Source: an uncultured Erythrobacter sp. (lineage in GTDB: Bacteria; Pseudomonadota; Alphaproteobacteria; Sphingomonadales; Sphingomonadaceae). Taken from it: DNA of 64,000 bases. A program made the translations under genes and the position numbers. The stretch covers positions 1,054,001 to 1,118,000 of the forward strand of contig NZ_OY284433.1 of the NCBI RefSeq assembly GCF_958304185.1. The letters run 5' to 3'. Below the pieces are notes generated by a model. The model did no database searches. It worked only from the letters and a program-made list of their open reading frames with translations, and had not been told where the DNA came from. Below, one piece after another: positions 25,593 through 59,147 of this stretch (positions are counted from its first letter, which is position 1; each line of letters opens with the position of its first letter).

Positions 25593-26242
25593 TGCTGATG
25601 CAGCTCCTGCGGCGTGACCTCGCGCAGTTCTTTCCTTTCACCGGTAGCGGAGCCGCCCTACCCGTGGTGTTCTTCGTTGCGGTCGCGATGCTGTTCCCCT
25701 TTGCGGTCGGGCCGGATGCCAACATCCTCGCCAAGACCGGTGGCGGGGTGGTGTGGATCGCGGCGCTGCTGGCGGCGATTCTCCCGCTGGAAAAGCTGGT
25801 GGCGCGGGATATCGAGCTCGGCTTCTTCGACCAGCTCAAGCTGCGGGGCATGGCGGAAGAGGCGATGATGGCGGTGCGCCTGATCGCTCATTGGCTCAGT
25901 TTCGGCCCGCCGCTGGTGCTGGCAACTTTCCCGGCGGCCGCGTTGCTGAAGATCGAGGGCGAGACGTTTCAGATCCTGCTGCTGGGGCTTATCGCTGGCA
26001 CACCGGGGCTCGCCGCCATCGGGTTGATAATCGCCGCCCTCACCGCTTCCCTACGCGCAGGCGCGGCGCTTTCGGGCCTGCTCTTGATCCCCCTCGCCCT
26101 CCCCATCCTGATTTTCGGTGCCGGTGCGCTCGCCCGTCAGGATCAAGTGAGCCTCGGCTTCGTTGGAGCCATAAGCCTCGCACTGGTGGCACTCGCTCCG
26201 TTTGCCGCCGGAGCCGCGATCCGGGCGGCAAGGGAGAACTAG
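25592..26242 (+). CDS. ccmB: Heme exporter membrane protein CcmB
   Basis: Membrane subunit paired with CcmA; 216 aa with about six membrane spans. The N-terminal LLRRDLAQFF, PFAVGPD, GVVWIAALLAAILPLEKLVARDIELGFFDQL and the TAGTPGLAAIGLIIAALTASLRAG-like segment match CcmB. Only ccmA and ccmB are here; ccmC, ccmE and later maturation genes must lie elsewhere. A further membrane protein gene overlaps its stop codon. Confidence 0.93.
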   Translation: MLMQLLRRDLAQFFPFTGSGAALPVVFFVAVAMLFPFAVGPDANILAKTGGGVVWIAALLAAILPLEKLVARDIELGFFDQLKLRGMAEEAMMAVRLIAHWLSFGPPLVLATFPAAALLKIEGETFQILLLGLIAGTPGLAAIGLIIAALTASLRAGAALSGLLLIPLALPILIFGAGALARQDQVSLGFVGAISLALVALAPFAAGAAIRAAREN

Positions 26243-26904
26243 TGCGCGCACCTGAGAGCCACGTTCGAGCGAATGAATTGATGGGCAATATCGCGCTGGG
26301 GCTGCTGGGCTTCACGCTGTTCGCCTTTGCGCTGAAGGCGGCGGCGCATCCTGAGGTGCAGGCGCGCTACACGCCGATTGTGGTGTTCCATGCGATGAGC
26401 ATGGTCGCGTGGCTGGGCCTGCTCGCCATCCAAGCTTTTGCCGCCGCACGGTTCAAGCTGGCCGCCCACCGCGCCACAGGCCGCGCCTCGATTGCGCTCG
26501 TGGCTGCGATGCTGGTGAGCGGCTCGGTGATTTCGTGGCGGATCGGATTGGAACTCGGCCGCCCCGAGGTGACAGTGGTGAACCTCGCCGCCTTCGCGAC
26601 CTTCATCCCGCTCTATTTCGCCGCGCTGCACTTCGCGAGGCGGCGCGACATCGCCGCACACCGGCAGGCGATGCTGATTGCAACGCTGGCGCTGATGACC
26701 CCCGCCTATGCCCGCGTGGTGCAGGTGCTGGGCCTGCCCGATCCGGTTGCGATTGCGGTGCAGGTGCCGATCACGATTGCGATTGCGGTGGGGTATGATT
26801 GGGTGTTGCACGGGCGGGTGACCCGGCCGGTGCTGGCGATGCTGGGGTTTTCGGTTGGGCTGGTGGTGGTGATGGTCGGGGTGTTGGCGGTGTTGTTTTT
26901 GTAG
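26242..26904 (+). CDS. DUF2306-like multi-span membrane protein
   Basis: The 220-aa product has about six to seven membrane spans. GTG 26242 is proposed as start: AGGGAG lies 6-7 nt upstream and the start shares one base with the ccmB stop (TAGTG); ATG 26281 is the alternative. Conserved-looking histidines sit at membrane edges (VVFHAMSMVAWLG, KLAAHRATGR, IAAHRQAMLIATLALMTPAYARVV), as in DUF2306 and b561-like proteins. A role with the heme exporter is suggested only by the coupling. Confidence 0.65.
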   Translation: MRAPESHVRANELMGNIALGLLGFTLFAFALKAAAHPEVQARYTPIVVFHAMSMVAWLGLLAIQAFAAARFKLAAHRATGRASIALVAAMLVSGSVISWRIGLELGRPEVTVVNLAAFATFIPLYFAALHFARRRDIAAHRQAMLIATLALMTPAYARVVQVLGLPDPVAIAVQVPITIAIAVGYDWVLHGRVTRPVLAMLGFSVGLVVVMVGVLAVLFL

Positions 26905-26920
26905 CGCTGAGTGAGCGGGG

Positions 26921-26995
26921 CCCCGGGTCAAGCCCGGGGAGGGGAATGGAAGAGCTGGTAGGCCCCCGTCCCGGGCTTGACCCGGGACCCAGCTT
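26921..26995. repeat. Palindromic repeat doublet, left of GIY-YIG gene
   Basis: An outer unit CCCCGGGTCAAGCCCGGGG (26921-26939) faces an inner unit (26963-26995) containing CCCGGGCTTGACCCGGG. The inner 33 bp are the exact inverse complement of 27366-27398 on the other side of the GIY-YIG gene. Each unit is itself a hairpin with 8-bp arms around TCAAG. Confidence 0.9.
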
Positions 26996-27011
26996 GTTCT
27001 TTGTTCCTGAA

Positions 27012-27314
27012 ATGCAAAGAGAAACACGAGGCGGCTGGGTCTACATTATGACCAATCGCTATCGCGGAACATTGTATGTCGGATCGACCAGCGATCTGGC
27101 TCAACGCATCTTTGAACACCGTGAAGGGCTTGGGTCGGAGTTCTGCGCCGAGCATGGACTGACGCGACTGGTGTGGGCTGAGCGAGCAGAGTGCATCGTC
27201 GATGCCAAGCATCACGAACGACGTTTGAAACGCTGGCGCCGCGAGTGGAAATTCGCGCTGATAGAGAAGGCAAACCCGGATTGGGACGATCTGTTCGAGC
27301 AAATGCACTGGTGA
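27012..27314 (+). CDS. Small GIY-YIG nuclease domain protein
   Basis: The 100-aa protein is essentially one GIY-YIG domain. WVYIMTNRYRGTLYVGSTSDLAQRIFEHREG holds the two-strand GIY..YIG element (VYI...LYVG) and the conserved arginine and histidine; later come LTRLVWAER, the glutamate/lysine helix AKHHERRLKRWRREWKFALIE and NPDWDDLFE, all as in the small bacterial single-domain family. DNA-cleaving activity is inferred from the fold. It starts 16 bp after one palindromic doublet and ends 5 bp before another; a perfect 33-bp inverted repeat encloses it. Confidence 0.92.
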   Translation: MQRETRGGWVYIMTNRYRGTLYVGSTSDLAQRIFEHREGLGSEFCAEHGLTRLVWAERAECIVDAKHHERRLKRWRREWKFALIEKANPDWDDLFEQMHW

Positions 27315-27319
27315 TCAAG

Positions 27320-27398
27320 ACCCCGCCCCGGACTTGATCCGGGGGCCCGCTACTCTCCGCGAAAAAAGCTGGGTCCCGGGTCAAGCCCGGGACGGGGG
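27320..27398. repeat. Palindromic repeat doublet, right of GIY-YIG gene
   Basis: An inner, more diverged unit with CCCCGGACTTGATCCGGGG (27326-27344) faces an outer unit 27366-27398 with CCCGGGTCAAGCCCGGG. The outer 33 bp pair perfectly with 26963-26995. The element ends 3 bp before the map stop codon. Confidence 0.9.
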
Positions 27399-27400
27399 AA

Positions 27401-28228
27401 TTACGCGTAAGGCGGGCAATCCCGCCCGGTCGGGCTCTTGGTGAAGATCTCGTTGCCCGTTTCGGTGATCGCAATCGAATGCTCGAACTGCGCGCTCAGC
27501 GACTTGTCGCGCGTTACCGCCGTCCAGCCATCGCCCAGCACCTTGGCCCAGGGCTTGCCGAGGTTGATCATCGGTTCGATGGTGAAGAACATCCCCGGCT
27601 TTAGCTCCGGCCCCGTCCCAGCCTTGGCGGCGTGGACCACTTCGGGCGCGTCGTGGAACAGGCGGCCGAGGCCATGCCCGCAGAACTCGCGCACCACGCC
27701 GTAACGGAACTGGTTCGCGTGCGCCTCGATCGCCGCGCCGATATCGCCCAGCCGCGCGCCGGGCTGCGCTGCCGCGATTCCGAGCATCAGGCATTCATAG
27801 GTCACTTCGACCAGCTTCTTGGCCTTCAGCGACGGCTCGCCCGCGTAAAACATCCGGCTCGTGTCACCGTGCCAGCCATCAACCAAAGGCGTGACGTCGA
27901 TGTTGAGAATGTCGCCATCCTTCAGCACCTTGTCGCCCGGAATACCGTGGCAGATCACATGATTGATCGAAATGCAGGACGAGTGCGCATAGCCGCGATA
28001 GCCGAGCGTGGCCGGCACCGCGCCTGCATCCAGCATCATACCCCGCACCGCATCGTCGATGCTGCCGGTGGTGACTCCGGGGCGCACCAGTTCGGCGCAA
28101 GCGTCGAGGATTTCGGCGGCGAGCCGCCCGGCCTTGCGCATCGCGTCAAAGCCATCGGGCCCATGCAGTTTGATGGTGCCATCGCGAAGGACGGTCTGGT
28201 CGCCGTCGACAAGTTGATATTCGTGCAT
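27401..28228 (-). CDS. map: Type I methionine aminopeptidase
   Basis: Removes initiator Met from nascent proteins. Pita-bread metallopeptidase with metal ligands in NIDVTPLVDGWHGDTSRMF (two Asp), FCGHGLGRLFHDAPEV (His), FFTIEPMINLG (Glu) and AQFEHSIAITETG (Glu); substrate histidine in GYAHSSCISINHVICHGIP. ATG 28228 gives 275 aa, normal for type Ia. The open frame upstream crosses the next gene's end and is not used. Confidence 0.96.
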   Translation of the reverse strand: MHEYQLVDGDQTVLRDGTIKLHGPDGFDAMRKAGRLAAEILDACAELVRPGVTTGSIDDAVRGMMLDAGAVPATLGYRGYAHSSCISINHVICHGIPGDKVLKDGDILNIDVTPLVDGWHGDTSRMFYAGEPSLKAKKLVEVTYECLMLGIAAAQPGARLGDIGAAIEAHANQFRYGVVREFCGHGLGRLFHDAPEVVHAAKAGTGPELKPGMFFTIEPMINLGKPWAKVLGDGWTAVTRDKSLSAQFEHSIAITETGNEIFTKSPTGRDCPPYA

Positions 28229-59117: not shown

Positions 59118-59147
59118 GGGGTCCCGGGTCAAGCCCGGGACGGGGGA
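59118..59147. repeat. Solo copy of the GIY-YIG-flanking palindrome
   Basis: Contains GGTCCCGGGTCAAGCCCGGG and the following GACGGGGGAA, matching 27370-27400 base for base except the first. There is no GIY-YIG gene here. It lies between argS and the next lipoprotein gene. Confidence 0.85.

Follow-up and report, generated by a model that had tools for sequence, protein, structure and literature searches.

A GIY-YIG nuclease gene between inverted REP hairpins in Erythrobacter, a probable member of a family of minimal mobile cassettes

Background

REPs are common repeats of bacterial genomes, and those that carry a tag have been split into GTAG and CGTC types (Di Nocera, De Gregorio and Rocco 2013, PMC3733652). 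In the main text of that survey, REPs of the CGTC type are given stems of 8-9 bp, loops of 4-5 nt and CCA-like tails, and are described as mostly paired with a unit of opposite direction. They are said there to have no association with transposase genes and to "seem lacking a dedicated transposase", and the survey suggests that their enzyme died out or that other transposases stand in for it. The term "GIY" does not occur in its main text, and neither GIY nor RAYT nor transposase is found as a term in the main text of a 2025 REP survey. Among the matches listed by a literature search over titles and abstract openings of open-licence papers, no link between GIY-YIG genes and REPs was found, which is no proof of its absence from print.

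Other described systems offer parallels. In REP/REPIN-RAYT (TnpA-REP) systems, as generally understood, the gene of a nuclease lies between inverted REPs, and gene-less doublets are dispersed. In pairs of insertion sequences (IS) and MITEs, terminal inverted repeats are common to gene-bearing and short gene-less units, and similar copies stand at unrelated loci. Ssn, reportedly the subject of Chenal et al. (Nature Communications, 2025), is said to be a site-specific single-stranded nuclease of the GIY-YIG family that acts on a Neisseria repeat, with the emphasis on cutting of single-stranded DNA and on transformation.

We analysed a window of 64,000 nucleotides from an uncultured Erythrobacter sp. 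(contig NZ_OY284433.1, positions 1,054,001 to 1,118,000), in which a GIY-YIG gene enclosed by inverted hairpins had been predicted from the sequence alone. The locus resembles REP/REPIN-RAYT systems in having a single-gene nuclease between inverted REPs, with gene-less doublets dispersed, but its nuclease is a GIY-YIG protein (PF01541) and not an HUH Y1 transposase, and its hairpins appear to be of the CGTC and not the GTAG type. It shares with IS/MITE pairs the features given above; however, each of its terminal repeats is itself a hairpin, the length is often about 390 bp (436 bp here), no known transposase fold is present, and no target duplication was recognised. With Ssn, the likeness lies in a single-domain GIY-YIG protein and in a Neisseria gonorrhoeae homologue that stands beside such repeats. 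To this are added here the anatomy of the cassette, the correspondence between protein and hairpin classes, the presence of copies at unrelated places and a tie to CGTC REPs. Priority for the idea that the nuclease acts on the repeat may lie with the Ssn paper; should the flanking of the genes by cognate repeats already be documented there, the association would not be new, and the CGTC tie, the anatomy and the evidence of movement would be the points to compare.

We propose that the 436-bp unit is probably a member of a large family of minimal, REPIN-like mobile cassettes, each with a nuclease that would recognise its terminal hairpins.

Results and Discussion

Anatomy of the cassette

The features of the window are listed in Table 1. 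The cores follow one another in the order REP(-) 26922, REP(+) 26970, gene, REP(+) 27327 and REP(-) 27375. As originally predicted, the cassette arms (26963-26995 and 27366-27398) are perfect inverse copies, identical in 33 of 33 bases once inverted; extended, they are 97% complementary over 36 nt. The cassette that they enclose, predicted at about 436 bp, measures 436 bp. Both arms have the hairpin form of CGTC REPs (8-9 bp, 4-5 nt), with an 8-bp stem and a CTTGA loop. Together, the inner right REP and the right arm make up an ordinary inverted (REPIN-like) doublet with 48 bp from start to start, and the right arm ends two bases short of the stop codon of map (27401-27403), whose product is 99% identical to its counterpart in E. 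ramosus. The other two units had been described as diverged. This does not hold for 26922-26938, where the core is exact, whereas the unit at 27327-27343 does differ, by a compensated pair (G-C to A-T). With up to three mismatches, the 17-nt core occurs at five sites in the window, where chance would give 0.67 on average; none of 100 shuffles reached five.

Table 1. Features of the window
Feature	Position	Strand	Remarks
Outer left REP	26914..26944	-	exact core 26922-26938; divergent from cassette arm; outside the 436-bp cassette
Left cassette arm, REP hairpin	26963..26995	+	stem GTCCCGGG / loop CTTGA / CCCGGGAC, tail CCA; exact inverse of right arm
Single-domain GIY-YIG nuclease gene	27012..27314	+	100 aa, ATG start, intact
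Inner right REP	27321..27349	+	variant core CCCGGACTTGATCCGGG, compensated stem change
Right cassette arm	27366..27398	-	exact inverse complement of left arm
Dispersed REP core copy, alone	59123..59139	-	flank closely matches cassette arm
Left neighbour, convergent with map	26242..26904	+	DUF420 match under Pfam cut-off; start codon chosen by the analyst; context only
Right neighbour, methionine aminopeptidase (map)	27401..28228	-	Peptidase_M24; context only

The product of the gene has one GIY-YIG domain (PF01541, E 2.5e-10) in 100 aa, in agreement with the predicted single-domain GIY-YIG gene at 27012-27314. Its structure model has a pLDDT of 93.3. The nearest solved chain is the UPF0213 protein 1zg2 (E 1.1e-9 by sequence profile; E 1.0e-3 at best by fold with Foldseek), and Slx1 nucleases come next by fold. 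Five residues, Y22, R32, H36, E69 and N88, are invariant in an alignment of 29 rows, and some of them are presumably catalytic. As a small, single-domain GIY-YIG protein with conserved residues, it has the features that Ssn is said to have. The only NCBIfam match, to group I intron endonucleases, is weak and under the cut-off. Compared with four orthologues, dN/dS is 0.23, 0.05, 0.11 and 0.09, with synonymous change near saturation in three of these comparisons (for a fifth orthologue the ratio was not computable), and the protein is under purifying selection.

REP classes in the same genome

A copy of the palindrome near position 59118 had been described as solitary. It is alone locally; over the genome, the count that had been proposed along with the original prediction found the core CCCGGGCTTGACCCGGG at 90 sites in 3.29 Mb with at most two mismatches, and the reversed pattern at none. 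Of 30 neighbouring pairs of this class (class A) within 100 bp, 29 are oriented (+,-), one is (-,+) and none has both units in the same direction; the starts of the (+,-) doublets are 48-68 bp apart. With many copies that mostly form inverted doublets, the class has the arrangement described for CGTC REPs. The single (-,+) pair is the left side of the cassette in the window. Since the ends of the cassette have the (+,-) orientation of the doublets, it resembles a doublet that encloses a gene.

This genome carries three GIY-YIG genes of the cassette kind, each between inverted copies of a different REP-type hairpin; the hairpins that bound the other two are CACCCCAGCGAAAGCTGGGG and CATGCTGAACTTGTTTCAGCAT. 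The three cognate classes are dispersed at 59 (with at most one mismatch), 48 and 48 sites, counts that are not strictly comparable because the patterns and mismatch limits differ. A gene bounded by inverted REPs of a class dispersed in the genome is the arrangement that marks REPIN/RAYT systems. Class D has ten sites in this genome, and no class-D gene was found in it. The doublets of classes B (nine fetched) and C (eight fetched) often have two unlike arms, as do several class-C cassettes.

Association of gene and hairpins across genomes

Loci for comparison were 80 stretches at the stronger GIY-YIG matches of 61 related genomes (weaker and fragment matches were left out), together with the best 80 of 325 relatives from a one-genome-per-species collection and the window, which gave 172 places, one of them without flank. 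A flanking inverted repeat with a score of at least 18 was found at 134 of 171 places and at none of 855 random placements. When identical genes were dropped, 128 of 162 GIY-YIG genes passed, the other 34 having no strong inverted repeat by the score used; of the ordinary genes in these loci, 3 of 1182 passed. These 162 genes represent 101 distinct contexts, in 82 of which the median score passes. The three ordinary genes that passed are, by reading of their sequences, an IS30-like transposase gene that carries inverted repeats of its own, a gene enclosed by two REP doublets and a mutase-like gene that has a different hairpin repeat. The prediction could have failed through a lack of repeat enrichment at GIY-YIG genes in related genomes or through the genes always occupying one syntenic place; the enrichment is there and the contexts are many, so that the proposed parallel with REP/REPIN-RAYT systems, in which the GIY-YIG protein takes the place of the RAYT, stands.

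The protein is found at E 1e-10 in 139 of 398 genomes of an even sample of the phylum. Out of 70 loci from this sample, one had too little flank and at least two repeat earlier places (L255 is the gene of the window, and L256 equals L184 by its arms); 42 of 69 passed, against 0 of 52 control placements of equal length (in 26 of the loci) and 1 of 133 in a control with shorter flanks (200 bp, compared with 300 bp for the genes). Distant GIY-YIG genes with a weak profile match passed in 1 of 24 cases. At E 1e-3, no match was obtained in 21 of the 61 related genomes. In a plasmid collection, 32 records have a match, and seven of the ten inspected passed: Sinorhizobium meliloti pSymB, Azospirillum lipoferum (between sufB and sufC), Aeromonas caviae, Shinella, Sphingobium, Novosphingobium aromaticivorans pNL2 and Neisseria gonorrhoeae. 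The flanking-repeat score was not passed by the Photobacterium, Rhizobium tumorigenes and Planktothrix records. The Neisseria gonorrhoeae homologue, which we assume to be Ssn, has 45% identity over 86 aa and lies between perfect 26-bp inverted copies of CCGTCATTCCCGCGCAGGCGGGAATC.

Relation to CGTC REPs

Hairpins with a stem of 8-9 bp and a loop of 4-5 nt were found on 183 of 202 context-sides of the relatives and in 110 of 456 control segments; the form searched for was a stem of 8 bp closed by a loop of 4-5 nt. Although these hairpins were picked regardless of tag, CGTC or TGTC stands on the outside in 140 of the 183 and on the gene side in 11, compared with none of the 110 control hairpins. 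The usual loops are GAAA/GAAG or CTTGA, and the three bases after the tag are CCC or CCA in 104 of the 183. The two halves of the stems vary in step, being paired at 0.97 and 0.93, versus 0.82 and 0.76 when the halves are re-dealt, a contrast that is partly built in, because the arms were preselected for pairing.

The likeness to the CGTC REPs of the 2013 survey, as its main text presents them, thus comprises the 8-bp stem, the loop of 4-5 nt, the outer CGTC/TGTC, the inverted doublets and the occurrence mainly in Alphaproteobacteria; moreover, Sinorhizobium meliloti and Azospirillum lipoferum, both named there (PMC3733652), carry the cassette. The difference is that the hairpins here bound a GIY-YIG gene and that the arms in the window have CCCC at the place of the tag. 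From these sequence features, the hairpins appear to be, or to descend from, the CGTC-tagged REPs of Di Nocera et al. (2013).

Both window arms have CCCC before the 8-bp stem, where relatives typically have CGTC, and the CGTC is shifted into the stem. To the letter, then, the arms do not have the tag, and we file them as a lineage variant of CGTC-tagged REPs. Among class-A copies in fetched loci, CCCC is found in 28 of 37 from this genome and in 15 of 125 from other loci, close orthologues included, although these loci are a non-random sample and common descent could also give this sharing. In the same genome, all 23 class-B and all 11 class-C copies retain CGTC. With CCCC shared by the arms and most of the sampled class-A copies, the likeness between dispersed copies and resident cassette extends to the tag.

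Match between protein and hairpin class

The hairpins were sorted by inner stem and loop into eight classes. This comparison used 151 of the 162 genes, as 11 were dropped for stops or a low score. Left and right hairpins agree in class in 114 of the 116 genes with both sides classed (one side was classed in 27 genes and neither in eight). On a protein tree with 141 labelled rows, the classes require 13 changes (the minimum is seven), whereas shuffled labels require 66 on average, and none of 200 shuffles was as low. With one row per context (89 rows), there are 13 changes against a shuffled mean of 37.6 and a lowest value of 33 in 500 shuffles. The tree was built from few columns and has many open forks. 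Protein clade predicts hairpin class.

In one group with shared flanks (L115, L118, L121 and L124), the hairpin classes differ between genomes; here protein and arms may switch class jointly without a change of place.

Copies at unrelated loci, empty sites and inheritance

In five genomes, pairs of cassettes that are 98.5, 97.3, 95.4, 93.8 and 89.8% identical stand at unrelated places, and the stretch that they share is the cassette plus 0-50 bp. Terminal inverted repeats combined with copies at unrelated loci are characteristic of insertion sequences; no target-site duplication was recognised by eye in these five pairs. Cassettes also occur in tandem, at L223 and L117. The L223 array (L223:4067-5294, Sphingobium sp. 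DEHP117) consists of three GIY-YIG cassettes that are identical along long stretches.

Orthologous loci were compared for clean absence of the cassette, as had been suggested with the original prediction, and empty sites do occur. One belongs to a cassette of the similar pairs (G025 L109), where the flanking genes are about 780 bp apart in the carrier, with the cassette as the middle part, and 3-15 bp apart in six relatives (G015, G010, G036, G001, G011 and G032). The gap at this place is about 160 bp in the genome of the window, about 140 bp in G033 and more in some others, and these larger gaps indicate that the place takes other sequence too. Another empty site is the aminopeptidase junction of G034, where about 30 bases separate the two genes. 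At this junction, the cassette adjoins the aminopeptidase gene in the genome of the window, E. ramosus and E. sanguineus, and lies further from it, with other sequence in between, at L178, L176 and L177; among the other relatives listed, the place is taken by doublets without a gene, which belong to several REP classes, by small genes or by a different neighbour. Since several contexts are common to up to seven genomes, some cassettes are old and inherited, not moving.

Copy number and gene presence

Among 37 genomes of the genus, those with the cognate gene have more REP copies beyond the cassette arms in the case of classes B (p = 0.011), C (p = 0.0037) and D (p = 0.019), kinship being ignored. 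For class A, the relation in these 37 genomes is not significant once the arms are subtracted (p = 0.166, kinship again ignored). Within genomes, the abundance of cognate classes exceeds expectation (p = 0.0026 by permutation), with 13 genomes showing more and seven less. It is common for REPs to occur in the absence of their gene; those of class A are found in 18 of 29 genomes that have no cognate gene. Copy number is tied to gene presence loosely only, and it seems either that a REP population outlives its gene or that genes were missed in draft genomes.

One class-D locus (G006:C17:70885-71170) has arms around two short GIY-YIG gene fragments, and looks like a decaying cassette that is turning into a gene-less doublet.

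Proposed function and alternatives

That gene and repeats form one unit is, in our judgment, nearly certain. It is also very likely that the protein recognises its own hairpin class. We incline, by a modest amount, to the further view that the protein drives the spread of cassette and doublets. In the proposed mechanism, the hairpins would fold in single-stranded DNA, for example on the lagging strand, and the nuclease would cut at both ends, where it would know its own class by stem, loop and flanking tag. The cut single strand would then be copied or recombined into a new place, and gene-less inverted doublets and single hairpins would be the non-autonomous (REPIN-like) relatives of the cassette. 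The nuclease is presumed to act by hydrolysis, as GIY-YIG enzymes do; strand rejoining is the weakest step of the scheme, and host repair or recombination is assumed for it. We infer binding, cutting and nuclease-driven dispersal from these comparisons, and strand specificity and the joining step are conjecture.

The nuclease might recognise REPs on behalf of the host, by cutting incoming or exposed single strands at places marked by REPs and so tuning DNA uptake or recombination, in which case the spread of REPs would be incidental. Purifying selection and the conserved places of some cassettes would suit such a role, as would the Neisseria gonorrhoeae homologue among repeats of the same kind and the Ssn of Neisseria meningitidis, which reportedly acts on repeats of this sort and modulates transformation. 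However, similar cassettes that stand at unrelated loci of a genome, and the presence of several classes side by side, look like an element and not like a fixed host tool, and 21 of the 61 relatives are without a match at E 1e-3; we consider a host function unlikely, though not negligible. Less probable again is a free-standing homing nuclease that settled in REP doublets and moves between them by cutting and repair copying, while the REPs spread by other means. Such a history would account for arms that, where found, are oriented as an ordinary doublet with the gene between, and it draws on the frequency of GIY-YIG domains in homing nucleases and on the weak, sub-threshold match to group I intron endonucleases. 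But in the similar pairs, non-REP sequence outside the arms moved as well, and the empty site of six relatives, with flanks 3-15 bp apart, has no room for a doublet. The match over eight classes and the lineage tag on arms and dispersed copies alike imply a long common history, which also argues against homing.

Two further readings are both extremely improbable. RAYTs are given in the 2013 survey as the hypothesised movers of GTAG REPs (PMC3733652), and a RAYT or IS200-type Y1 transposase could mobilise the present REPs in trans, with the GIY-YIG gene as a passenger; in that survey's main text, however, no CGTC REPs were found at tyrosine transposase genes. We disfavour action in trans, as PF01797 has no match in this genome and none in 50 of the 61 genomes searched, the REP-rich G015 and G024 included. 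Alternatively, REPs might be common intergenic hairpins, such as terminators, so that any small gene in an intergenic stretch would inevitably lie close to some. The genome is indeed rich in REPs, and REP doublets stand on either side of one control gene among the 1182, but spacing within a class is much the same. Coincidence is refuted by the counts for GIY-YIG and ordinary genes (128/162 vs 3/1182), the random placements (0/855), the agreement of the two sides (114/116) and the distant GIY-YIG genes (1/24).

To a broader proposal we give somewhat less than an even chance: the GIY-YIG protein could be the missing transposase of the whole CGTC REP superfamily. The cassettes of about 390 bp in Proteobacteria, and perhaps Cyanobacteria, would then be a new minimal class of single-strand transposon, opened at its hairpin ends by a GIY-YIG nuclease instead of an HUH enzyme, and the CGTC REPs in these genomes would be its MITE-like offspring. 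Should the nuclease move REPs, a new enzyme fold would join the drivers of hairpin-ended DNA transposition, and the origin of many alphaproteobacterial intergenic repeats would be explained. The class-matched gene makes the open question of the CGTC REP enzyme directly testable with one small protein and one oligonucleotide.

Additional observations

Beside cassettes (24 in 74 kb), a motif of the AGCGGACA / TGTCCGCT type reaches 4.6 times its density in other fetched sequence (125 in 1769 kb). The AGCGGACA type was seen in the flanks of L104, L108, L110 and L154, in the outer 30-260 bp of the cassettes, and may reflect a target preference or a further repeat.

At L338, L333 and L336 (same-class genomes, family f16), GIY-YIG genes are surrounded by extended GTCAT...ATCCA hairpins in very long inverted arms, with scores of 52-70.

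On the Planktothrix agardhii plasmid (L345), a GIY-YIG homologue lies between a type IIL restriction gene and the DISARM gene drmA, among GTCATTCTGAG...AGAATC hairpins. With such hairpins near the homologue, the pairing of gene and repeat may reach beyond Proteobacteria.
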